Shown here: piece after piece, positions 8,092 through 36,536 of the stretch
How the letters are laid out: each line of letters begins with the position of its first letter
How positions within the stretch are numbered: position 1 is the stretch's first letter
From: Verrucomicrobiales bacterium
GTDB taxonomy: Bacteria; Verrucomicrobiota; Verrucomicrobiia; Verrucomicrobiales; DEV007
Assembly (NCBI GenBank): GCA_016795505.1
Contig: JAEUHH010000014.1
Coordinates: 1 to 64,000, forward strand
DNA: 64,000 bases
Direction of reading: 5' to 3'
Translations under genes and position numbers: made by a program
Notes under the pieces: generated by a model
What the model was told of the DNA's origin: nothing
What the model saw: the letters and a program-made list of their open reading frames with translations, nothing else
Database searches by the model: none

Positions 8092-9747
8092 TCAACGGTC
8101 CCCGCTGGTGAGCATGCGGGCGGCGAGCGCGAGCGTCTCCTTGCCGACGCCGCCGAGCATGCGCGCCAGCTCCGAGGTGCGCTCGTCACCCGCGACGGGC
8201 CGCAGGGTGGAGCGGGTGCTGTCCTCGGCGAATTCCTTGCACACGACGTAGTGGTGATGGGCGAGCGCGGCGACCTGGGGCATGTGGGTGATGGCCACGA
8301 CCTGGTGTCGCTCGCCGAGGGAGGCCATTTTCCGCCCCACGGCATGGGCGATCTCGCCGCCGACGTTGGCGTCGATCTCGTCGAAGACCATCAGCGGGAT
8401 CTGGTCCTGATCGGCGAGGGCGCTTTTCACCGCCAGCATGACCCGCGACATTTCCCCGGACGAGGCGACGACTCGCAGAGGTTTGGGTGGCTCGCCGGGA
8501 TTGGGGGCGAAAAGGAAATCGATGCTTTCATAGCCGCGCGCCTGGGGCTCGGTGCCGGGGGCGATCGACACGTCGAAATGCGACTGGCGAAAGCCAAGGT
8601 CCTCCAGTTGTCCGCCGATCTCGCGGGCCAGTTTCGGGGCGGCGGCGCGGCGTTTTTTCGACAGGGCGGCGGCGGCGCTGTCCAGCGCGGTCCGGCCACG
8701 GGCGACGGCGGCCTCGAGACGCTCCAGCTCGTCCTCCCGCTGGTCGATGCGCCGGAGTCGTTCGCGGGCCTGCTGGCCGTAGGCGACCACATCGGCGAGG
8801 CTCTGTCCGTACTTGCGCTTCAGGCTTTCCAGCAGATCGATGCGGCGCTCCATCTCGGCGACTTCGGCGGGGTCGAATTCGAGATCGGCGAGATAGTCTC
8901 CGAGGCTGCGGTCGATTTCCTCCAGTTCGACGCGGGCGCCTTCGAAGCCGCCGGTGAGACTTTCCAGGGCCGGGTCGAGCTTTTCCAGTTCCCGGATCGC
9001 CCGGTGCACCTCGCCGAGTTGTTCGATCGCGCTCCCGAGTCCGCGGGCGGCCTCGCCGGTCAACTCGACGAGCCGGGCACCGTTGGTGACGAGGCGGTAG
9101 CGCTGCTCGAGCTCGGTCTCCTGGTCGGGGTCGATGGCGGCGGACTCGATTTCCTCCACTTGGTAACGCAGCAGCTCGATCTCGGCATCGGTCGCCTGGC
9201 GCAGGCCGCGAAAGGCCTCGAGGGCTTCGCTGGCGGTCTGCCAGTCCCGCCAGGCGGCGGCGTAGGCGGTGCGCTCTTTGCCGGCCTGGGCGTAGGCATC
9301 GAGCATGGCCAACTGGCGGTCCTGGGACAGCAGGGACTGGTGCTCGTGCGGTCCGTGCAGGTCCACGAGCTGGTCGCCGAGGGATTTCAGCACGCCCAGG
9401 GTGCAGGGCGAGCAATTGATGAACTGCTTGTTGCCGCTGCCGCCGCCGAAGACGCGCTTCACCACCAGGGTGTTGCCGTCGCAGGGCTCCAGGCCGCATT
9501 CTTCCAGCAACAGATTGACCTGCGGCAGGTTGCCGCCCAGCTCGAAGATGGCCTCCACGCTGCAGCTCGACTCGCCGGTGCGGATGAGGTCGTGGTTGGC
9601 CCGTTCGCCGAGGATGAGCTTCAGCGCGCCGACGATCATGGACTTGCCGGCGCCGGTCTGGCCCGTCACGCCGACGAGGCCGGGACCCAGTTCCCACGTG
9701 AGATCGTCCACCAGGGCGAGGTTTTTGATCTTCAGAACGGCGAGCAT
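8092..9747 (-). CDS. recN: DNA repair protein RecN
   Basis: 551 residues, full length for RecN, an SMC-like ATPase that acts at double-strand break ends before recombination. The N-terminus MLAVLKIKNLALVDDLTWEL is typical, followed by Walker A GQTGAGKSM (about residue 30), a central coiled coil (about 160-380) and the C-terminal half with EMSRVMLAVK (ABC signature region), LMVFDEIDANVGG (Walker B) and VVAITHMPQVAA. ATG 9747 was chosen because residues after it match the family exactly; the longer open frame upstream overlaps the opposite-strand hydrolase. The bases before the ATG are pyrimidine-rich (CCTCCCTTCCTCAC) with no Shine-Dalgarno. Confidence 0.95.
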   Translation of the reverse strand: MLAVLKIKNLALVDDLTWELGPGLVGVTGQTGAGKSMIVGALKLILGERANHDLIRTGESSCSVEAIFELGGNLPQVNLLLEECGLEPCDGNTLVVKRVFGGGSGNKQFINCSPCTLGVLKSLGDQLVDLHGPHEHQSLLSQDRQLAMLDAYAQAGKERTAYAAAWRDWQTASEALEAFRGLRQATDAEIELLRYQVEEIESAAIDPDQETELEQRYRLVTNGARLVELTGEAARGLGSAIEQLGEVHRAIRELEKLDPALESLTGGFEGARVELEEIDRSLGDYLADLEFDPAEVAEMERRIDLLESLKRKYGQSLADVVAYGQQARERLRRIDQREDELERLEAAVARGRTALDSAAAALSKKRRAAAPKLAREIGGQLEDLGFRQSHFDVSIAPGTEPQARGYESIDFLFAPNPGEPPKPLRVVASSGEMSRVMLAVKSALADQDQIPLMVFDEIDANVGGEIAHAVGRKMASLGERHQVVAITHMPQVAALAHHHYVVCKEFAEDSTRSTLRPVAGDERTSELARMLGGVGKETLALAARMLTSGDR

Positions 9748-25711: not shown

Positions 25712-26782
25712 TCAAGGCGCGGGGATGGGGCGGATCTCGCCGGTGAAACGGGACCGGTAGCCGGGCAGATCCTCAAGCAGGGCGCGGTGGGCATGGCTCT
25801 GGAGCACCCGGATGAGACCGCGGATGCGCGGCTCGGACAGTTGGGACTCGGCGACGCAGAAATCGAGGCTTTCCTCCCGCAGAGGCCGGAAGGCGAGGCC
25901 GGCCTCCTCGGCGCTGAGGCGGATGCAGACACCCGCATCGGCCCAACCGGCCCGCACGGCGCTGGCGACGCTGGCATGGCCGCGGACGACGTGTCCGACG
26001 GGTGCGCGGTCGGGTCCGAGCACGGCATCAAGGCAATCGCGGGCCGCAGAGCCGGGCTCGCGCAGCGCCCAGCGGTCACAGCGGCTCAGCAGGGCGTCGG
26101 TGGAGTCGGAGCGGCCGCCGACGGGAAGGGCGAGGCCTTCCTCCCACTCGGCGGCGCGGATCAGGGCGTGGCCGGCTCCGAGGGCATTGCGGGCGATTGC
26201 GACGTGGCGATCGGGATCGTCGGCGGTGGCAAAATGCAGCCCGGCGAGGTGGACCAGACCGCGCTTGAGGAGATCCAGCGCGTCCAGACCGCCGCGCTCC
26301 AGTACGAGTAGTCGAAAGCCAGTGGTGCGGGCATACTCGGCCGCCAACAGGCCGGCACCGGGATCGCAGCAGGCCAGCACCAGCGTCTCGGCCGCCCGCG
26401 AGGCGCCGCCGGAGCGGTGCGCGCCGTCTTTCCAGACGCCGTCGTGGGCAAAAGCGTTGGTCGACAGTGATTCGGTGGGATAGGCGAGGTGACGGGCGCC
26501 GACCCGTGCCTCCCAGTAGCGGCAGGGATGGGTCGGCGGTGCCCAAGCCCATTCGAGATCGGTTGCGGCCCCGTCAACGGTTGCGAAAAGCGATTCCACG
26601 GTGACACCCAGCGCCCGGGCCACTGCCAAGGCGGCGCTGACCGAGGGCGTGAGGCGGCGGCTCTCGATGGCGCTAATGGTCGAGCGCGGGACGCCGGCGT
26701 GATCCGCCAGATCGGACTGGGACCAATGCCGTTCGAGCCGACGGAGGGTCACCGGATGGGCAGCGGGATTTTTAATTGACAT
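25712..26782 (-). CDS. XRE-type regulator with periplasmic-binding-like domain
   Basis: 356 residues from ATG 26782. Residues about 10-65 are an XRE helix-turn-helix (RRLERHWSQSDLADHAGVPRSTISAIESRRLTPS). From about 95 on it resembles the PBP-like ligand domain of COG1910-type molybdate regulators (LVLACCDPGAGLLA, LVHLAGLHFA, GHASVASAVRAGWADAGVC, LDFCVAESQL). It sits directly ahead of modABC on the same strand, so it very probably senses molybdate, tungstate or molybdopterin and controls the unit. A TGACA-N6-TGTCA inverted repeat overlaps its own start. The usual ModE architecture (winged helix plus TOBE) is absent. Confidence 0.82.
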   Translation of the reverse strand: MSIKNPAAHPVTLRRLERHWSQSDLADHAGVPRSTISAIESRRLTPSVSAALAVARALGVTVESLFATVDGAATDLEWAWAPPTHPCRYWEARVGARHLAYPTESLSTNAFAHDGVWKDGAHRSGGASRAAETLVLACCDPGAGLLAAEYARTTGFRLLVLERGGLDALDLLKRGLVHLAGLHFATADDPDRHVAIARNALGAGHALIRAAEWEEGLALPVGGRSDSTDALLSRCDRWALREPGSAARDCLDAVLGPDRAPVGHVVRGHASVASAVRAGWADAGVCIRLSAEEAGLAFRPLREESLDFCVAESQLSEPRIRGLIRVLQSHAHRALLEDLPGYRSRFTGEIRPIPAP

Positions 26783-26792
26783 GATGCTGTCA
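26777..26792. promoter_or_regulatory. Inverted repeat, possible operator of the mod regulator
   Basis: Perfect TGACA (26777-26781), six-base spacer, TGTCA (26788-26792). It overlaps the ATG of the XRE regulator and lies 22 bp before the ATG of the divergent porin, so a protein bound here could control both directions. The site is short and the binding protein is inferred. Confidence 0.45.
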
Positions 26793-26813
26793 TTTTCGGA
26801 TAGGATGCAAGCC

Positions 26814-28199
26814 ATGTCAACTATTCCCACCCACATCCTGTCCGGCCTTGTTTCCCTCGTTCTGGTGCTACCGTTGCTACGAGGGGCGGATTCTGACGGG
26901 CCGTTCGTGACCAAAGCGGCCGCCGCCAACCGGGTCTCGGCGACGCCGGACTATGTCCAATCCCTCGCCGAAGCCGCCCAAATGTGGGAGGTGCCGTCCT
27001 GGAAGAGGCTCGACTGGCTGGATTTCGGCGTGAGCCACCGGGACCGCTACGAAGTCCGCGACCAGGATTACCGCACCGTGGACCTGATCTCGGAGGATGT
27101 CCTCTATGACCAGACCCTGCTCTATCTTGGTATCCGCGAGTTGATCGATCCGCTGCGCTTCGGGGTGGAATTCCAGGATGCGCGGCGGTTTTTCAGCGAT
27201 CGGTCGGAATCGGCCAACGAGGCGAACCACACGGAGATCCTCCAGGCTTTTGGAGAACTCTATTTCGGCGACACAATCGGGGGAGAGCCGGTGAGCGTGC
27301 GTTTTGGCCGGATGGCCTTTGACAGCGGCGACCGGCGGCTGGTGTCGCGCAACCGCTATCGGAATGCCATCAATGCGTTCGACGGTGCCCGGCTACGATT
27401 CGGTGGGGACGCCAGCGATTTCGAGTTGGATACCTTTGCCCTCCGCCCCGTGACCCGATCAGTGAGCGTCCTCGACGAGTCCAGTGACGATGCCTGGCTC
27501 TACGGCGTGCACGGCTACCTGCGCGGCAGATCACCGGCATTGTTGCTGGAACCCTATTACTTTTTGTCAGATCAGGAAGCCGGCACTGTCCGGCATCTCC
27601 ATACCACTGGGGTTCATGGTTATGGTCAGATCACGGGCACTGGGTGGGACTACGACTGGAATGTTGCCGGTCAATGTGGCGACTCTGGCGGTCGTGTCCA
27701 CCGAGCTTGGGCGGCGCATGTCGAGGCAGGGTATACGTGGTCCGGCCATTCATGGAAGCCACGGCTGGGTCTGTGGATCGACCATGCCTCCGGGGACCGC
27801 GATCCGACGGATGATCGCTCGGGGCGTTTCGACTCGCTGTTCGGCGACAGCTGGGCGCACTATGGCTACGAGAGCTATTTCGTGTGGCAAAATCAGGTCG
27901 AGCCCGCCCTGCGGTTGACCATTCAGCCCGCTACGAAGCTCCGCTGCGAGGCCTTTGTGCGCTCCGCCTGGCTGGCGAGCGAGCGGGATATCTGGGTCGC
28001 GACCCGGCGGGGCGACCCCACAGGTGGAAGCGGTCGTCACGTGGGCGAGGAGATCGACCTGAGAGCCACGTGGAAAGTGAGTCACCACCTGGAGGTCGAG
28101 GCGGGATATTCGCATTTTTTTCCCGGAGACTTCGTCGCCGGCACGGGTCAGTCGCCCGACACCAGTTTCGGCTATGTAGCGGCTATGTGGCGTTTCTAA
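26814..28199 (+). CDS. AlgE-type outer-membrane porin (alginate export family)
   Basis: 461 residues. A signal peptide (LSGLVSLVLVLPLLRGA) is followed by a beta-barrel pattern of alternating strands ending in AAMWRF, a terminal Phe as needed for barrel assembly. Blocks DRYEVRDQDYRTVDLISEDVLYDQTLLYLG, VRFGRMAFDSGDRRLVSRNRYRN and the ending GYSHFFPGDFV match the alginate_exp family of anion-selective barrels. AGGA 8 bp ahead supports ATG 26814 over ATG 26805. It is divergent from the mod regulator, so a part in oxyanion entry is a reasonable guess. No alginate genes are nearby. Confidence 0.8.
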   Translation: MSTIPTHILSGLVSLVLVLPLLRGADSDGPFVTKAAAANRVSATPDYVQSLAEAAQMWEVPSWKRLDWLDFGVSHRDRYEVRDQDYRTVDLISEDVLYDQTLLYLGIRELIDPLRFGVEFQDARRFFSDRSESANEANHTEILQAFGELYFGDTIGGEPVSVRFGRMAFDSGDRRLVSRNRYRNAINAFDGARLRFGGDASDFELDTFALRPVTRSVSVLDESSDDAWLYGVHGYLRGRSPALLLEPYYFLSDQEAGTVRHLHTTGVHGYGQITGTGWDYDWNVAGQCGDSGGRVHRAWAAHVEAGYTWSGHSWKPRLGLWIDHASGDRDPTDDRSGRFDSLFGDSWAHYGYESYFVWQNQVEPALRLTIQPATKLRCEAFVRSAWLASERDIWVATRRGDPTGGSGRHVGEEIDLRATWKVSHHLEVEAGYSHFFPGDFVAGTGQSPDTSFGYVAAMWRF

Positions 28200-28877: not shown

Positions 28878-30149
28878 TTAGCCTTCGCGTTCGGTTTCGG
28901 ACAAAAAGTGGCTGAGCCGCGTGCCACTGCCTCCGACCCGGAGCACGTAGAAGTCACTCCAGCCGGCATCGATGCGGGAATCGATGATGTAGTCGGTCCC
29001 CGAGTCTCCAAGCGCGGCGAGGTCGGTCTCGTGGATGAGAATATGGGTGCCGGCCGGGGCGGCGGGAAGCCGGCCGGGGATCTGCCCGACGTGATCGACG
29101 ATGTCGATCCGGTCGTCGGGTCCGAATTCAGGAATGGCGGGGTGGGAGACGACGAGGAAGTGACTCGCATCGAGCTGAAACTGACTCATCATCACCGCAT
29201 GCACGGATCGCTCCGGTCCCTGCTCCCACAGCGACCAGGCGGCACCGGTCAGCAGGATGAGACTGGCCACGGCCGCGGCCGCCACGGCGAGGCGGGGGCG
29301 TCCGGCGCCGCGTCGCAGCGGCTGGGGCGACCAGGCGGCCACATCCGGATCTTCGACGGCGGGTTTGCGGGCGAGCAGGCAAGCCTCCGAGCCGAGGGAG
29401 GGGAAGAGCGATCCCCAGAGTTGGTTCAGCCGCACCCAGGGGCGGAGATTTTCGAGCGGATTGCCGGTGTGGCGGATCAGGTGGGAGCCAGTGACGAACT
29501 CGACGCCGAGTCCGGTGGACTCCATCAGCATGCGCAGTCGGTCGGGGGAAAAGCTGTTGATGTGTCCGCCACGGGCCAGCCGACCCTCTGCGAGGCGGCG
29601 ACGGAATTGCTTTTCGCGAATGTCGGCCAGCAAACCGGGCATGGTGGGCGTCGCGGTGAGGAGGAATCCGCCTCCGGACAGGGCGCGGCTGATCTCGGCC
29701 AGCGAATAGCCGACCCGCGGCAGGTGTTCGAAGACGTGGAGGGCGACCACCACGTCGGCTTCGCCATCGGTGAGAGGCAGCGGCTGGTCGAAATGACAGG
29801 GGCGGATGTCCTCATAGCCGGCGGCCCGGAGCCAGCCTTGCTCGGGCTGCCAGTCGAGCGCGATCCAGCGAGCTGCGACATCGGAGCCGACGAACCGCTT
29901 CAGCCACCCGCGACCGCTGCCATAATCGGCGATCACCGGCGGCTCCAGCCCGGCATCGGCCCGGCGTTGGCACTCCTGCCGGATCGCCTGGGCTGCCCAC
30001 CAATAGCGGAGCAGCCGGATGGAGTAGCGGGCCTTCGCCAGATGTGCCGCCAGCAGCGGGTCTGGCTCACGCTGGTCAACGGTCTCGGAAAATGGGCGAA
30101 TGGGCCAACGGAGGAACGGAAACGAGGTGCGACAGAGGGCTGGAGGCAT
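28878..30149 (-). CDS. SAM-dependent methyltransferase fused to a membrane helix and C-terminal domain
   Basis: 423 residues from ATG 30149. The class I methyltransferase part (about 40-260) has motif I VIADYGSGRGWLKRF, motif II-like IALDWQPEQ, VVVALHVFEHLPRVGYSLAEISRAL and the late block GGGFLLTATP. After a poorly conserved stretch comes one membrane helix (about 285-310: LAVAAAAVASLILLTGAAW) and about 110 residues presumed outside the inner membrane (SQFQLDASHFLVVSHPAIPEFGPDD onward). The fusion is unusual. The target is unknown; sugar or lipid methylation is common in this group. Confidence 0.72.
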   Translation of the reverse strand: MPPALCRTSFPFLRWPIRPFSETVDQREPDPLLAAHLAKARYSIRLLRYWWAAQAIRQECQRRADAGLEPPVIADYGSGRGWLKRFVGSDVAARWIALDWQPEQGWLRAAGYEDIRPCHFDQPLPLTDGEADVVVALHVFEHLPRVGYSLAEISRALSGGGFLLTATPTMPGLLADIREKQFRRRLAEGRLARGGHINSFSPDRLRMLMESTGLGVEFVTGSHLIRHTGNPLENLRPWVRLNQLWGSLFPSLGSEACLLARKPAVEDPDVAAWSPQPLRRGAGRPRLAVAAAAVASLILLTGAAWSLWEQGPERSVHAVMMSQFQLDASHFLVVSHPAIPEFGPDDRIDIVDHVGQIPGRLPAAPAGTHILIHETDLAALGDSGTDYIIDSRIDAGWSDFYVLRVGGSGTRLSHFLSETEREG

Positions 30150-30341
30150 GGCTGGGACAGGTCTGGAGGAAGAGGCGACCCTTTGACGGAGAACGGGGTC
30201 CGACCGATAGATTTTTTTTTCATTTCCCTCAAGAAAAGGGCAGGGCCGGCGGTCAGGCGTCTTTTCTCGAAAGGCGGCCCTTGAAAGAAACGCCAGTGGC
30301 GGCTTGACTGGCCGGGCCGGTCGCACCGGCGATCCCGGCTC

Positions 30342-31838
30342 ATGGCCAGCGCCACCTCCAGTGCCGATTGTCTGCCATTTCTCCGCGCGCTTTCCGATGA
30401 AAGCCGCTGGGAAATCGTGCGGCTGCTCGTGGCCACGCCGGATGGGCTCAATCTGGGCGATCTGGCGGAGCGGCTCAGGCTGTCGCTCTACAATGCCTCG
30501 CGCCATGTGCGGGTGCTCCACGAAGCCGGGATCGTCTCGGTGGAACGCGAGGGCCGCTTCAAGCGCATCGGCATCGCGCCCGCCTTTCGCCGCCGCATTC
30601 GGTCGCAGGCGGGCTCGGATGCGCTCGACCTCGGCTGCTGCCGCTTCGATTTCTCCACACCCGCGGCTGGAACGGCATCGCGGACAAAAAAACAGTTGCT
30701 TCAGCATGCAACTATCCCTACTCTCGCGACCATGTCTTCCCCTGCCCGTTACATTATGATCGGTGGCTTTCTCGGCGCCGGCAAGACGACCGCCGTCGCA
30801 GCAGTCGCCCGACACCTCGCCGATGCCGGCAAGCGGGTCGGTCTGATCACGAACGATCAGGGCCGGGAACTGGTGGATACACAGATGCTGCGGTCGCGGG
30901 GCTTTGCCACGGAGGAGATCGCGGGCGGCTGCTTTTGCTGCAAGTTCAACTCGCTGGTCGATGCGGCGAGCCGGCTCGACTTAGATGCAGCGCCGGAGGT
31001 CTTCATTGCCGAGCCGGTGGGGAGTTGCACCGATCTGGTGGCCACAGTGACCTACCCGCTGCGCCGCATCTATGGCGACCGGTTTTCCATCGCTCCGCTG
31101 TCGGTGCTGGTCGATCCGATGCGGGCGCGGCGCATCCTCGGGCTGGAGGAAGGGCGGAATTTTTCCGACAAGGTCCTCTACATCTACCGCAAGCAGCTCG
31201 AGGAGGCGGATGTGATCCTGATCTCGAAGCGCGATCTGCTCGATGAAGCCGGCGAGGCGGAACTGCGCGAGGCGCTGGAGCGGGAATTCCCCAAAGCCCG
31301 CGTGCTGGCCATCTCAGCCCGCAAGGGCGAGGGCCTCGAGGCGTGGTTCGAGATCCTGGAGTCGGAGACGCAGACCCTGGGCGCGGCGATGGAGGTCGAT
31401 TACGACACCTATGCCGAGGGCGAGGCGCTGCTGGGCTGGCTGAATGCGACGATCGAAGTGAAAGCGACGGACGAATTCGACTCCGCCCCGCTGCTGCAAG
31501 CGCTGGCCCGCGAGATCCATGCCCGGCTCGTGGCCGAGGGTGCCGAGGTCGCGCATCTCAAGATGACGCTGAGCCCAGACCAGGCCTTTGCCGGCGAGGT
31601 GGCGGTGATCAACCTGGTCCGCAATGATTTCGCGCCCGAAATGGGGCAGGAGCTCGACGAGCCGGTCGAAGGTGGCCAGATCATCCTCAATCTGCGTGCG
31701 GAGGGAGATCCCGAGGGGCTCGAAGCCATCGTGCGCGAGGCCATCGCGGCGGTGAGCACGGCCGATTGCCAACTTTCCCTCGATCATCTGGAGCGCTTCC
31801 GGCCCGGACGACCGGTGCCGACGCACCGTGATGCGTGA
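30342..31838 (+). CDS. ArsR-type HTH joined in one frame to a COG0523 (CobW/G3E) GTPase
   Basis: 498 residues if read as one protein. Residues 8-85 are an ArsR-like winged helix (FLRALSDESRWEIVRLL, YNASRHVRVLHEAGIVSVERE), ending LDLGCCRFDF. From 131 on it is a G3E metallochaperone GTPase: Walker A GGFLGAGKTT, the metal motif GGCFCCKF (CxCC), the Glu-Pro switch FIAEPVGSC and base recognition SKRD. No stop separates them. A second ATG at 30732 (MSSPARYIMIGG) lies right before the GTPase, and a palindrome sits just upstream, so two overlapping products are as likely as a fusion. Such pairs usually handle zinc or cobalt. It is only 10 bp ahead of pstS. Confidence 0.78.
   Translation: MASATSSADCLPFLRALSDESRWEIVRLLVATPDGLNLGDLAERLRLSLYNASRHVRVLHEAGIVSVEREGRFKRIGIAPAFRRRIRSQAGSDALDLGCCRFDFSTPAAGTASRTKKQLLQHATIPTLATMSSPARYIMIGGFLGAGKTTAVAAVARHLADAGKRVGLITNDQGRELVDTQMLRSRGFATEEIAGGCFCCKFNSLVDAASRLDLDAAPEVFIAEPVGSCTDLVATVTYPLRRIYGDRFSIAPLSVLVDPMRARRILGLEEGRNFSDKVLYIYRKQLEEADVILISKRDLLDEAGEAELREALEREFPKARVLAISARKGEGLEAWFEILESETQTLGAAMEVDYDTYAEGEALLGWLNATIEVKATDEFDSAPLLQALAREIHARLVAEGAEVAHLKMTLSPDQAFAGEVAVINLVRNDFAPEMGQELDEPVEGGQIILNLRAEGDPEGLEAIVREAIAAVSTADCQLSLDHLERFRPGRPVPTHRDA
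30694..30713. promoter_or_regulatory. Perfect palindrome upstream of the GTPase ATG, possible ArsR site
   Basis: AGTTGC (30694-30699), eight-base spacer, GCAACT (30708-30713). It is 18 bp ahead of ATG 30732 within the continuous frame. Its symmetry and position fit an ArsR/SmtB-type operator controlling the GTPase part. If it is an operator, the intervening DNA evolved as a promoter region rather than as a protein linker. Confidence 0.5.
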
Positions 31839-31848
31839 TGGTCGGTAA

Positions 31849-32709
31849 ATGGGCAACGATTTCTCGATGAATTCCGTTTTTTCATTTGCGGTCTCACGCA
31901 AATATTGGGTGTTGCTTGGCGGATTCAGTCTTTCCCTGGCCAGTTGCAGCAAACGCGAAGCCGGCGTCGAGACCATCACCCTCACCGGCTCCAGCACGGT
32001 GGCGCCGCTCGTCGCCGATGCAGCCAAGCGCTATGAGGAATCCCATCCCGCCGTCCGGATCGAGGTGCAGAGTGGCGGTTCGTCCCGTGGTTTGGCCGAT
32101 GCCGGCAGTGGCGTCGCCGATCTCGGCATGGTTTCCCGCGCTCTGACTCTGGAAGAGGCAAAAACACTGAAGGCGCATCGTATCGCTGCCGATGGCGTGT
32201 GTGTCATCCTCCACAAGGACAATCCTGTTGCCGAGCTCAACCGGCAGCAACTGATCGACATCTACACAAAAAAGGCGGTGAACTGGTCCACCGTTGGCGG
32301 CGCGGACGCCCCCATCGTGGTCGCCAATAAAGCCGAAGGACGCTCCACGCTGGAGGTCTTCCTTCATTTCCTCGGTCTCGACAATGCCGACGTGAAAGCC
32401 GATGTCGTCGTCGGCGAGAATCTGCACGTGATCAACTCCGTGGTCAGTAATCCCAACACCGTGGGCTACGTCTCCATCGGCACCGCCGCGAGCGAGGCTA
32501 AAAACGGCACCCCAATCAAGCTGGTCATCACGGAAGGCATCACACCCTCCATGGAGACGGTGGCCGATGGCACGTTCCCCATCACCCGGCCCTTGAATGT
32601 GGTCGAGGATGCTCAAACCTCCGCAGCGGCTGCCGCCTTCCTCCAGTTTCTAACCTCGCCGGCCATCCATGACCTCGTCGAAAAGCACTACTTTGTCCCG
32701 GTCCCTTGA
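31849..32709 (+). CDS. pstS: Phosphate-binding lipoprotein PstS
   Basis: 286 residues (or 280 from ATG 31867, which begins MNSVFSF). Signal peptide ends in lipobox LASC. The binding protein starts ITLTGSSTVAPLVADAAKRYEE, with VEVQSGGSSRGL-type phosphate loop (IEVQSGGSSRGLADAGSG), DLGMVSRAL and VNWSTVGG. This is the periplasmic receptor of the high-affinity phosphate ABC transporter. Its 3' end overlaps pstC by 41 bp. Confidence 0.9.
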   Translation: MGNDFSMNSVFSFAVSRKYWVLLGGFSLSLASCSKREAGVETITLTGSSTVAPLVADAAKRYEESHPAVRIEVQSGGSSRGLADAGSGVADLGMVSRALTLEEAKTLKAHRIAADGVCVILHKDNPVAELNRQQLIDIYTKKAVNWSTVGGADAPIVVANKAEGRSTLEVFLHFLGLDNADVKADVVVGENLHVINSVVSNPNTVGYVSIGTAASEAKNGTPIKLVITEGITPSMETVADGTFPITRPLNVVEDAQTSAAAAAFLQFLTSPAIHDLVEKHYFVPVP

Positions 32710-33571
32710 CCGGGTCTTTCGGGGAGTGCTGGGCCTGTTGGCAGCCGTATCGGGCGGGATGGTCCTCCTGATCGTGTCCTATCTGGTCACCGGAGCGTGG
32801 CCGGCCATCGAAGCGGGCCGCCTGGCCGCCTTTTTCACCGACGAGCGGTGGCAACCGGGCTCGGCGCGGGACCCGCAGTTCGGCGTGGTATCCATGCTGG
32901 TCGGCTCCCTGCTGGTCACTCTGCTCGCGGTGGGGCTGGCGACGCCCGTGGGCGTGGCGTCAGCGGTGTTTCATCGCTTTTACGCCCCGCCAGTGCTGGA
33001 GCGATGGAATCGGCGCATGCTCGAGCTGCTCATCGGTGTCCCCGCGGTCGTGTTCGGATTCTGGGGCCTGATGACGGTGGTGCCCCTGATCGTGCGGCTC
33101 GCGCCGGAAACGCCCGGGCAGAGTCTGCTCGCCGGTGGCATCGTGCTGGCGCTCATGATCCTGCCCATCGTCACCCTGACCACACAGGCTGCCCTGCAGG
33201 CGGTGCCGCGGGCGCAATTGCTCGCTGCGGCGGGACTCGGCCTGGGCCGCGCCCGCACCATCTGGGCGGTGGCCTTGCCGGCTGCGCGCGGGGGGATCGG
33301 GGCGGGCGTGCTGCTCTCGCTGGCGCGGGCCATCGGTGAGACCATGGCCGTGGTGCTGGTCTGTGGAAACATCCCGCAGATTCCCGACAGCCTGTTCGAC
33401 CCGATCCGGCCCGTCACCTCGACCATCGCGCTGGAAATGGGCTACGCCACCGCCTCCCACAAGGCGCTGCTGTTCTGCGCCGGCCTGGTGCTGGTGCTGT
33501 TCACCGCCGTCTTTGTCGGCTGGCATTCCTTCCGCCGGCAGATGGCCGATACCGGCACGGGCGGAGCTTGA
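32669..33571 (+). CDS. pstC: Phosphate ABC transporter permease PstC
   Basis: 300 residues. Six membrane helices, with IGVPAVVFGFWGL and the cytoplasmic loop ARAIGETMAVVLVCGNIPQIP that contacts the ATPase; both are PstC hallmarks. ATG 32669 lies inside pstS, an unusually long overlap of 41 bp for this operon; a later start would cut into the first membrane region. Confidence 0.92.
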   Translation: MTSSKSTTLSRSLDRVFRGVLGLLAAVSGGMVLLIVSYLVTGAWPAIEAGRLAAFFTDERWQPGSARDPQFGVVSMLVGSLLVTLLAVGLATPVGVASAVFHRFYAPPVLERWNRRMLELLIGVPAVVFGFWGLMTVVPLIVRLAPETPGQSLLAGGIVLALMILPIVTLTTQAALQAVPRAQLLAAAGLGLGRARTIWAVALPAARGGIGAGVLLSLARAIGETMAVVLVCGNIPQIPDSLFDPIRPVTSTIALEMGYATASHKALLFCAGLVLVLFTAVFVGWHSFRRQMADTGTGGA

Positions 33572-33596
33572 GAAAGCGACGCTGCCACTCCCGCTC

Positions 33597-34481
33597 ATGT
33601 CTTTTTCCGCTGACTCATCGACTCGCACAGCCACCCGGTCTGGGTGGGCGGATCGCGCTTTCGGCTTTGCCGGCGGGGCGGCGGCGTTCCTGACGGCCGG
33701 GCTGTTTGGCTGGATCGTATGGGACTTGATCCGTCTCGGGTGGCCCCACTTGTCGTGGTCATTTTTCACCGGCGAAGTCGAGGATGCCGGCCGACAGGGA
33801 GGCGTCGGGCCGCTGCTGATTTCCTCGGTCTTGATCCTGGTCTGCTGCCTCGTCCCCGCCGTTCCGCTGGGCGTCGGCTGCGCCCTCTGGCTGTCGGAAT
33901 GCGTGCGCCGGGGCAGCCTGACAGCCCGGCTCGTCACCGGCGGCGTGGATCTGCTGGCCAGCGTGCCCTCCATCGTCTTCGGGTTGTTCGGCATGGTCTT
34001 TTTCTGTCAAAAGCTGGGGATGGGATTCTCGATTCTGTCCGGTGGCCTGACCCTGGCCGGCATGATCCTGCCCATCCTGGTCAGAACGACCCTCACCGCG
34101 CTGGAGTCGCTACCCGCTGATCTCAGACCCGCTGCCGCCGCCCTGGGCCTGACCCGGACCACGTCGATCGTGCGGATCCTGTTGCCCGCCGCGATGCCGG
34201 GCATCGTCGTCGGTGTGACGCTCGGCATCGGGCGCGCACTCTCGGAGACAGCCGCCCTCCTCTTCACCAGCGGTTACTCGGTCCGCTGGCCTGAGTCCAT
34301 CCACGATTCCGGTCGCGCCCTGTCCGTCCACATCTACGATCTCGCCCTGAATGTCGCCAATGGCGGCCCCATGGCCTCGTCCACCGCGCTGGTCCTGCTG
34401 GCGCTCATCCTCATCATCAATGCCGCCGCCGTCATGCTCTCGGAGCGTTGGATGCGCCGACGGTATCATCCGGAAGCATGA
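33597..34481 (+). CDS. pstA: Phosphate ABC transporter permease PstA
   Basis: 294 residues from ATG 33597. Six membrane helices; VGPLLISSVLILV, LLASVPSIVFGLFGMVFF and the ATPase-contact loop LGIGRALSETAALLFTSGYS identify PstA. It starts 25 bp after pstC. Its stop overlaps the pstB start as ATGA. Confidence 0.92.
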   Translation: MSFSADSSTRTATRSGWADRAFGFAGGAAAFLTAGLFGWIVWDLIRLGWPHLSWSFFTGEVEDAGRQGGVGPLLISSVLILVCCLVPAVPLGVGCALWLSECVRRGSLTARLVTGGVDLLASVPSIVFGLFGMVFFCQKLGMGFSILSGGLTLAGMILPILVRTTLTALESLPADLRPAAAALGLTRTTSIVRILLPAAMPGIVVGVTLGIGRALSETAALLFTSGYSVRWPESIHDSGRALSVHIYDLALNVANGGPMASSTALVLLALILIINAAAVMLSERWMRRRYHPEA

Positions 34482-35278
34482 ATTCCGTCAACGACTCCAC
34501 CGAAACCGAGAGCATCGCCCGGCTCAGCGTCACGAGCCTGACGGTCCGCTACGGCGATCTGGTCGCGGTCCGTGATGTCACGCTCGCTTTTCCGGACGGG
34601 CGTATCACCGCCTTGGTCGGCCCCTCGGGCTGCGGCAAGAGCAGCTTCCTGCACAGCTTGAATCGTCTCACCGATCTCATCCCCGGATGCCGCGTCACCG
34701 GGGGCATCCGGCTTTTCGACGGCACGGACATCGCGCATCCCCGCGCGGATGTGCTCGCGCTGCGCCGCCGCATCGGGATCGTCTTTCAACGACCGAATCC
34801 CTTTCCCCAGTCCATCCGGCGCAACTTCGAGATCCCCCTGCGCGAGCACGGCTGGCACCGGCGGGACATCCCGGACAAGATGGAGACCGTGCTCCGGCAG
34901 GTGGGTCTGTGGAAGGAGGTCAGCGACCGCCTCCACAAAAGTGCCGTCGCTCTGTCCGGCGGCCAGCAGCAACGGCTCTGCCTCGCCCGCGCGCTCGCCC
35001 TCGACCCCGAGGTCATCCTGTTCGACGAGCCGTGCAGCGCCCTCGATCCCATCGCCTCGGGCGTGGTCGAGGACTTGATCCATTCCCTTCGCGACAGGCT
35101 CACCGTGGCCATCGTCACGCACAATCTCGCCCAGGCCCGCCGCATCGCCGATCACGTGGCCGTGTTCTGGCATCGCGACGGAGCCGGGCAACTGATCGAG
35201 TCGGGGCCGGCCGGCCGGGTGTTGGCCGCGCCCTCCGACCCCGACGCGATGAGCTATCTGGGAGGAATGCGCGGATAG
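34478..35278 (+). CDS. pstB: Phosphate ABC transporter ATPase PstB
   Basis: 266 residues from ATG 34478. Walker A GPSGCGKSSFL, Q-loop VFQRPNPFPQSI (the PstB-specific QxPNPFP), signature LSGGQQQRL, Walker B VILFDEPCSALDP and switch IVTHNLAQA. The 4-bp ATGA overlap with pstA implies coupling. No phoU follows; the next sequence is REP-like element D and a convergent gene. Confidence 0.95.
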   Translation: MNSVNDSTETESIARLSVTSLTVRYGDLVAVRDVTLAFPDGRITALVGPSGCGKSSFLHSLNRLTDLIPGCRVTGGIRLFDGTDIAHPRADVLALRRRIGIVFQRPNPFPQSIRRNFEIPLREHGWHRRDIPDKMETVLRQVGLWKEVSDRLHKSAVALSGGQQQRLCLARALALDPEVILFDEPCSALDPIASGVVEDLIHSLRDRLTVAIVTHNLAQARRIADHVAVFWHRDGAGQLIESGPAGRVLAAPSDPDAMSYLGGMRG

Positions 35279-35321: not shown

Positions 35322-35395
35322 TTTCCGATCAAACAGGGTAGCCACTCCGATCAAACAGGGTCTGATCGGTGATTCAACCCTGTTTCATCAGACCG
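35322..35395. repeat. Dispersed REP-like palindrome, element D (composite)
   Basis: Two direct copies of TCCGATCAAACAGGGT (about 35324-35339 and 35346-35361), then TGATCGGTGATTCA and an inverted ACCCTGTTTCATCAGA. It lies between convergent pstB and rfaE2-purN. Its right half encodes the last residues (GLMKQG) and the TGA stop of rfaE2-purN. Confidence 0.88.
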
Positions 35396-36465
35396 GCCCA
35401 GTGGGCGGCGATGACGCGGGGATAGAGCTCATGCTCGCGCTCCTGGATGCGGGCGTGGAGGGTCTCGGCGGTGTCGCCGGGGAGGATGGGCACGCGCTCC
35501 TGGGCCAGCATGGCGCCGCTGTCGATGCCGGAGTCGACGAGATGCACGGTGCAGCCGGTCTCGGTATCGCCGGAGGCTAGGGCTCGCCTCCAAGCCCCGA
35601 GGCCGGGATAGAGGGGCAGGAGGGAGGGATGAATATTGAGGATGCGGCCGGCAAATGCTTCCAGCACGGGGCCGCGGAGGATGCGCATGAAGCCGGCGAG
35701 GATGACGAGATCGACTGAGGCTGACTTCAGGCGGTCGGCAATCTCCTTCAGGGCGGCATCGCCGAGGCGACCACCCCTTTCTGAGCCGGGCTCGATATGC
35801 AGGGCGGGCAGGCCGCGGCTCCGGGCCAGGCTCAGCACGCGGGAGTCGGCGACATCGCTGAGGACGACGGCAATGGTGGCATCGAGCGTGCCCCGGTCGA
35901 TGGCGTCGGCGATGGCTTCGAAATTGCTGCCGTGGCCCGAGCCCAGAATGGCCAGTCGGGGCCCTGTTCCCGGGCTTTTGTCGCCGTCGCCGGCCATCCG
36001 CCGCAGGGTGGCGCTGGTGGATTGGCCAGGAACGAGCGAGAGGATGCGGATCTCGCTGCCGGCGCGGTCGAGGGCGGCGCGTTCTTCGGGATTGAGGCTT
36101 TCGGGCGTGTAATCGCCGCCCTTGGCATAGAGATGGGGCCGGATGGCGTCGATGACGCGGGTGGCGCGTTTTTCGTCGAAGACGACGACGCGGTCGACAC
36201 AGGCGAGGGCGCGCAGGATCTCGGCCCGGTCGGCGGCGGTGTTGACGGGACGGCCTTCGCCTTTCAACTCGCGTACGGAGGCATCGCCATTGAGGGCAAC
36301 GACGAGCGCGTCACCGAGAGCGCGGGCTTCCTGGAGATAGCGCACGTGTCCGACGTGGAGGAGGTCGAAGCAGCCGTTGGTCAGGACGACCCGCCGGCCT
36401 TCGCGGTCGAGGGCATCGCGCCACGCGGCCACTGTGTCAGTATCGGAAATAAAGCTAGATTCCAT
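35374..36465 (-). CDS. Fusion of RfaE2 (heptose-1-P adenylyltransferase) and PurN (GAR formyltransferase)
   Basis: 363 residues from ATG 36465. Residues about 10-145 are an RfaE2/HldE-type nucleotidyltransferase for ADP-heptose synthesis (LTNGCFDLLHVGHVRYLQEA with the HxGH motif, AKGGDY). Residues about 160-360 are a PurN-type glycinamide ribonucleotide transformylase (ILGSGHGSNFEAIADAI, VILAGFMRIL, catalytic Asn-His in ILNIHPSLLP, Asp in DSGIDSGAML). Both halves keep their active residues, so both reactions, one for LPS core and one for purines, may be done by one chain. A Met in the linker (MAGDGDK) could start a separate PurN. The last codons and stop come from element D. Confidence 0.88.
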   Translation of the reverse strand: MESSFISDTDTVAAWRDALDREGRRVVLTNGCFDLLHVGHVRYLQEARALGDALVVALNGDASVRELKGEGRPVNTAADRAEILRALACVDRVVVFDEKRATRVIDAIRPHLYAKGGDYTPESLNPEERAALDRAGSEIRILSLVPGQSTSATLRRMAGDGDKSPGTGPRLAILGSGHGSNFEAIADAIDRGTLDATIAVVLSDVADSRVLSLARSRGLPALHIEPGSERGGRLGDAALKEIADRLKSASVDLVILAGFMRILRGPVLEAFAGRILNIHPSLLPLYPGLGAWRRALASGDTETGCTVHLVDSGIDSGAMLAQERVPILPGDTAETLHARIQEREHELYPRVIAAHWAGLMKQG

Positions 36466-36536
36466 GCAATCCCGTGGGATCAATACCCCAGCGAATCCCG
36501 CCACGCATCCTGAAACCCACGAATTGATTCCCCCCC

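Follow-up and report, generated by a model that had tools for sequence, protein, structure and literature searches.

Does a repressor that runs in frame into a GTPase make a single protein, or does the palindrome at their junction still control a second product from within the gene? The question is raised by one reading frame in a 64 kb window (the whole stretch of DNA analysed, 64,000 nucleotides of a 6.5 Mb genome), in which an ArsR-type winged helix is followed by a linker and a COG0523-type GTPase. The features of this gene are:

30342–31838 (+): fused open reading frame, ArsR-type winged helix, linker and COG0523-type GTPase (ORF call, profile matches, seven further fused genomes)
30363–30650 (+): ArsR-type domain, approximately residues 8–103 (profile match and alignment; AfArsR, 6j05, is the best PDB sequence match and the best ArsR fold match)
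30369–30371 and 30636–30641 (+): conserved Cys10 and Cys99-Cys100, within the ArsR-type domain
30651–30731 (+): linker, varying in length among fused relatives with the frame always kept (comparison; residues 109–116 with pLDDT <50)
30692–30715 (+): intragenic predicted ArsR operator, with a perfect core AGTTGC-N8-GCAACT at 30694–30713 (conservation, locus comparison, matrix scan)
30696–30724 (+): putative internal promoter, TTGCTT (30696–30701), 17 nt and TACTCT (30719–30724), read by eye and weakly matching the consensus
30732–31838 (+): predicted free GTPase of 368 aa from a conserved internal ATG, possibly leaderless (ATG and spacing kept in eight fused genomes)

The fused gene and its relatives

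The frame spans 498 codons (498 aa) without an internal stop, in agreement with an earlier, sequence-only reading of this DNA which had seen none between HTH and GTPase. Pfam HTH_20 matched residues 17–68 at 40.9 bits (cut-off 27), which places this part among the ArsR/SmtB repressors, HTH_5 scored 22.3 bits (cut-off 22) and NCBIfam HTH_metalloreg 52.6 bits, slightly below its cut-off of 55. The GTPase part matched Pfam cobW at residues 138–319 (80.9 bits, cut-off 20.7) and possesses the P-loop GGFLGAGKTT and the CxCC motif (GGCFCC) which mark COG0523/cobW proteins, with C199 and C200 invariant in alignment A1. An AlphaFold2 model of the 498-aa fusion (mean pLDDT 81.9) consists of two confident domains and a poorly modelled linker. 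The closest solved structures by sequence are AfArsR (6j05, E 1.8e-9) for the ArsR part and YjiA (1nij, E 6.2e-9) for the GTPase part; in a Foldseek search with the predicted model 1nij ranked first and 6j05 was the best ArsR, at rank 36.

The fusion was detected in 8 of 74 genomes of the family searched (the window's own, G173, G047, G075, G149, G138, G168 and G089; five of the relatives are also loci L034–L038, G173 being L034/L151), whilst 387 genomes sampled across the phylum Verrucomicrobiota returned only that of the window at E 1e-30 or better. The distance from the CC pair to the P-loop is 37, 38, 42, 42, 42, 44, 45 and 48 codons in the eight fused genes. None of the eight linkers contains a stop, whereas one is present at each of the 11 distinct unfused junctions where a GTPase gene comes after an ArsR gene. 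Loss of a stop from such a tandem pair, as the sequence-only reading suggested, is the likely origin; its suggestion that the event was recent is not supported, since the fusion is common to genomes sharing 70–83% best-segment protein identity with the window (L034–L038) and is old within its clade. In a GTPase tree built by a quick method from 110 of 111 rows, six fused rows form one group with a support of 59, which the unfused L039 and L008 join at 99.

G173 carries a free GTPase copy (L039/L143) besides the fused one, and in the other seven fused genomes no second match was found at E 1e-60 or better, which is weak evidence of absence as most are drafts. In G173, a metagenome assembly, an in-frame TAG also interrupts the ArsR part of the fused gene at codon 12, the remaining frame being open; this may be an assembly error or loss in progress.

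The linker palindrome and the internal ATG

AGTTGC-N8-GCAACT occurs exactly once in the window, at the junction. All eight fused genes retain TTGC-N8-GCAACT and the following ATG in the linker without an indel between them, and only the left outer arm base varies. All eight also use the same arm codons, TTG, GCA and ACT, although these are rare (8.5% of Leu, 3.3% of Ala and 5.1% of Thr codons in the sample), which argues that the DNA, not the peptide, is conserved. Across the seven operator codons, synonymous differences ranged from 0 to 0.41 in pairs without the window and were <0.25 in 18 of the 21 pairs, compared to 0.24–0.74 in the flanking domains; pairs including the window were higher (0.44–0.69) because its spacer differs.

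Among 111 GTPase loci compared (distinct by a 160-nt GTPase stretch, though some are near relatives of each other), every one of the 37 in which an ArsR gene is adjacent has TGC-N8-GCA at the start of the GTPase, as do 15 of the 74 others (Fisher p 1e-17). The background was 122/2220 (5.5%) in 200-nt segments drawn at random from these loci and 182/1850 (9.8%) in dinucleotide shuffles. The 37 sites, 33 distinct 24-bp sequences, come from all three gene orders: 18 ArsR-GTPase (seven fused), 12 divergent and 7 GTPase-ArsR, the fused gene of G149 having been left out as it lies at a contig end. An ArsR relative was absent from the stretch compared in 70 of the 111 loci, partly through short contigs and stretches. 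A spacer of 8 stands out, other spacers from 2 to 16 reaching at most 8 of 37. Ahead of the ArsR start the motif occurred in none of 18 unfused tandem loci; a conserved operator at that position in the fused genes was considered and discarded, as only G047 and G089 showed a TGC-N8-GCA match there, one each. A matrix built from 32 operators, the window's excluded, scored the linker site (30692–30715) at 23.1 bits and a second site (31882–31905) at 26.1 bits in the 64 kb window, with the third-best match at 10.1 bits and a best score of 13.5 in 12 mononucleotide-shuffled windows.

As the unfused loci with an adjacent ArsR share TGC-N8-GCA at the GTPase start, the linker palindrome is by comparison an ArsR operator retained inside the fused gene, with binding as a prediction. 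This supports the proposal of a control element at the start of the GTPase, and the pattern which the sequence-only reading had named as counter-evidence, a linker kept as protein with the palindrome gone, is the reverse of that observed, in which the palindrome is kept and the linker varies. The palindrome lies within a translated region, and selection for an RNA hairpin or for the peptide could in principle explain its conservation, yet the fixed 8-nt spacing over three gene orders fits a DNA site bound by a dimer, and together with the invariance of rare arm codons this makes such an explanation very improbable.

The ATG which the sequence-only reading placed at the junction was found at 30732, where it begins 16 nt past the 24-bp operator, a distance invariant in all eight fused genes. 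A similar cassette from operator to start precedes the free GTPases L039 and L008 and other unfused GTPase genes; a search for ArsR remnants upstream of L008 and L039 found another gene there instead. A promoter-like pair, TTGCNN-N17-YANNNT, is discernible by eye in eight of eight fused genes, although a scan of 30100–30800 found no consensus sigma-70 promoter. No Shine-Dalgarno sequence was visible before the ATG, and a message from the internal start, if used, would be nearly leaderless.

These observations bear on how many products the gene has. Were the fusion the sole product, the operator in the coding sequence would autoregulate by blocking the elongating polymerase and the ATG would be no more than a conserved methionine, which would account for the lack of a consensus promoter and a ribosome-binding site, and for the second site at pstS, likewise within codons as a road-block site could be. 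We regard this as unlikely, because all eight genes keep the ATG at one fixed distance from the operator whilst the surrounding linker varies, and because free and unfused GTPase genes have a similar operator-to-start layout. Still more doubtful, at long odds, is that the fusion itself is functionless, with repressor activity and free GTPase sufficing and the open linker a product of drift: the linker peptide is indeed poorly conserved among the eight fused genes and the ArsR part of G173 is interrupted by a stop, however the several linker lengths are all multiples of three and free of stops, and the ArsR domain is under purifying selection (pN 0.02–0.35 vs. pS 0.24–0.74, stops and N-terminus omitted). 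The gene probably makes the fused protein plus, upon induction, a free GTPase. The suggestion of one locus giving both a fused and a free GTPase thereby gains strong support from the eight genomes which keep frame, operator, ATG and spacing, the free GTPase itself being a prediction.

A second predicted site and the inducing signal

The second and stronger site, absent from the sequence-only reading, lies at the start of a phosphate transporter cluster downstream:

31882–31905 (+): second predicted operator, with a perfect core ATTTGC-N8-GCAAAT at 31884–31903, in the first codons of pstS (top matrix match of the window, 26.1 bits)
31849–32709 (+): pstS (ORF and profile matches)
32669–33571 (+): pstC (ORF and profile matches)
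about 33639–34481 (+): pstA (ORF and profile matches)
34448–35278 (+): pstB (ORF and profile matches)

The site starts 33 nt into the annotated pstS frame (31849), in signal-peptide codons, so either the true pstS start is later or the site works from within the gene. In L034/L151 a perfect second operator (26.3 bits), flanked by TTGACA and TATAGA (by eye), precedes an OMP-like gene, a rhodanese gene and pstSCAB. Given the strong site at pstS and the perfect site ahead of the L034/L151 pst cluster, the repressor probably also controls pstSCAB (31849–35278, +). We do not propose pstSCAB as a standing partner of the GTPase, as among the loci compared the full set was nearby only in the window and L034.

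Several other features were recorded in and around these loci. Next to the second operator of L034, opposite the OMP-like gene, an ArsR-like stretch (8397–8762, −) in which CC is changed to RC is apparently a decayed divergent ArsR. In the window, a frame at 35374–36504 (−) contains a cytidylyltransferase-like domain (residues 41–134) and a formyl transferase domain (residues 183–365) by Pfam, which we take to be an apparent RfaE2-PurN type fusion, and an HTH_3 and PBP_like regulator (25712–26779, −) adjoins a molybdate-type binding protein and an Alginate_exp porin (26781–28199), a group also found near the fusion in L036/L150 in a different arrangement. Within L048–L072, a small FCHCNYARVVP protein (no Pfam match) comes directly after the GTPase in 15 loci without a nearby ArsR, and a 4Fe-4S protein lies downstream of the GTPase in 16 loci, a second set of partners besides ArsR.

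Which signal would release the repressor? The motif GCCRFDF ends the HTH part and supplies Cys99-Cys100, the pair suspected there as a possible metal ligand, and its CC is found at the C-terminus of all aligned ArsRs, with a Cys10-like cysteine wherever the N-terminus is complete. The type 2 As(III) site of AfArsR uses three C-terminal cysteines (Cys95, Cys96 and Cys102, as given in PMC11868830), of which Cys102 is without a counterpart here, leaving the pair Cys99-Cys100 only; Cys10 is a possible third metal ligand. According to the same source SpArsR, with a cysteine pair only, answers methylarsenite and not As(III) (PMC11868830).

The neighbourhoods of relatives provide further evidence. 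L041 and L043 have an ars operon layout (ArsR with ArsC and/or an As(III) efflux protein or channel), in the order ArsR-GTPase-PiT-OMP-rhodanese-ArsR2-DUF6428-ArsC-aquaporin, and their profile matches alongside the ArsR-GTPase pair are PHO4, rhodanese, a second ArsR, DUF6428, LMWPc (ArsC-like) and MIP; the window has pstSCAB instead. Of 87 loci, 11 have a MIP gene near the GTPase, and, amongst the 33 and 48 of these loci which could be divided by presence of an adjacent ArsR, at least one of five arsenic-type neighbours occurred in only 12/33 with ArsR and 6/48 without. Also weighing against arsenic, a search of the window's genome returned no ACR3, and the genome's own aquaporin-LMWPc pair, considered as a further target, has no such operator.

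Trivalent arsenic or antimony is more likely than zinc as the inducer because AfArsR is the closest solved relative, because the CC pair is retained and because ArsC, aquaporin and phosphate transporters lie beside some relatives. The zinc that the sequence-only reading proposed to test appears the less likely metal on the proximity of AfArsR and the ars-type clusters. The same circuit could answer a transition metal (zinc, cobalt or nickel), with the GTPase an ordinary COG0523 metallochaperone, a reading consistent with the CxCC motif, with NCBIfam ZigA and HypB among the weaker matches and with the link of COG0523 proteins to zinc given in Haas et al. 2009 (PMC2770081). That the closest solved ArsR is an arsenite sensor and that ars-type clusters occur in some relatives weigh against it, and we hold it to be a serious if rather unlikely alternative.

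The proposed circuit and known systems

By sequence comparison we consider the fusion, its frame, the conservation of the operator and the specificity of the site established. The best explanation, to which we assign a probability of roughly 0.6, is a fusion which represses both its internal promoter, so that free GTPase appears upon induction, and pstSCAB, and which is released by a metalloid. An ArsR gene and a COG0523-type GTPase gene under its control would have become one frame by stop loss, with the operator and the GTPase start retained inside. Transcription from upstream of 30342 would then supply the ArsR-GTPase fusion at a low level, since no operator precedes the ArsR start, and its ArsR part, as a dimer, would bind 30692–30715 in its own gene and 31882–31905 at pstS; the internal promoter would thereby be shut off and read-through probably hindered. 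Binding of a trivalent metalloid, with As(III) or Sb(III) the likeliest, to Cys99-Cys100 and perhaps Cys10 would release the DNA, upon which free GTPase would be made from the ATG at 30732 and pstSCAB derepressed. Arsenic can drive zinc out of cysteine sites, and such sites might be repaired by a metallochaperone; in this circuit the GTPase may support arsenic-damaged metal sites whilst Pst, as a high-affinity phosphate transporter, would help against arsenate.

We put forward tentatively, at somewhat under even odds, that the locus is a self-contained one-gene circuit with its own operator and inducible internal start, in which arsenic switches production from the fusion to its effector part and the fusion also controls a phosphate transporter. 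If true, such a circuit would make this COG0523 subfamily arsenic-responsive. The comparison itself links a branch of a GTPase family usually discussed with zinc and cobalt to ArsR control and probably to arsenic, and the locus illustrates how two genes can fuse yet keep the control element between them, one frame being selected as both protein and regulatory DNA. The function can be tested directly, since the predicted operator (TATTTGC-N8-GCAAATA-like) is defined and its two predicted targets are neighbours. In a literature search of titles and abstract beginnings, in which subscription journals were poorly covered, we found no described ArsR-COG0523 fusion or arsenic-linked COG0523 protein.

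The two halves each resemble known proteins. With ArsR/SmtB repressors such as AfArsR (6j05) the locus shares the winged helix, a predicted palindromic operator at the controlled promoter and a C-terminal vicinal cysteine pair, but here the repressor is fused to a GTPase, the operator is embedded in the coding frame instead of preceding the ArsR gene, and a conserved Cys10 is present in place of a third C-terminal cysteine (Cys102 in AfArsR, PMC11868830). With the COG0523/G3E metallochaperone GTPases (YjiA 1nij, CobW, ZigA) it shares the P-loop, the CxCC motif and the overall fold, but differs in its N-terminal repressor and in belonging to a Verrucomicrobiota subfamily often paired with ArsR genes. 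The best NCBIfam match of the whole protein is NF041053, a CobW-related selenoprotein family, on the GTPase part (65.3 bits, below the cut-off of 180), with cysteine here where that family has selenocysteine (UxxC, as given in PMC13188914). Finally, classical ars operons (arsR, arsC, aquaporin, phosphate transporters) share ArsC-type LMWPc, MIP, PHO4, DUF6428 and a second ArsR with the clusters of the relatives, whereas the ArsR partner here is a COG0523-type GTPase and the window has only the fusion and pstSCAB together.
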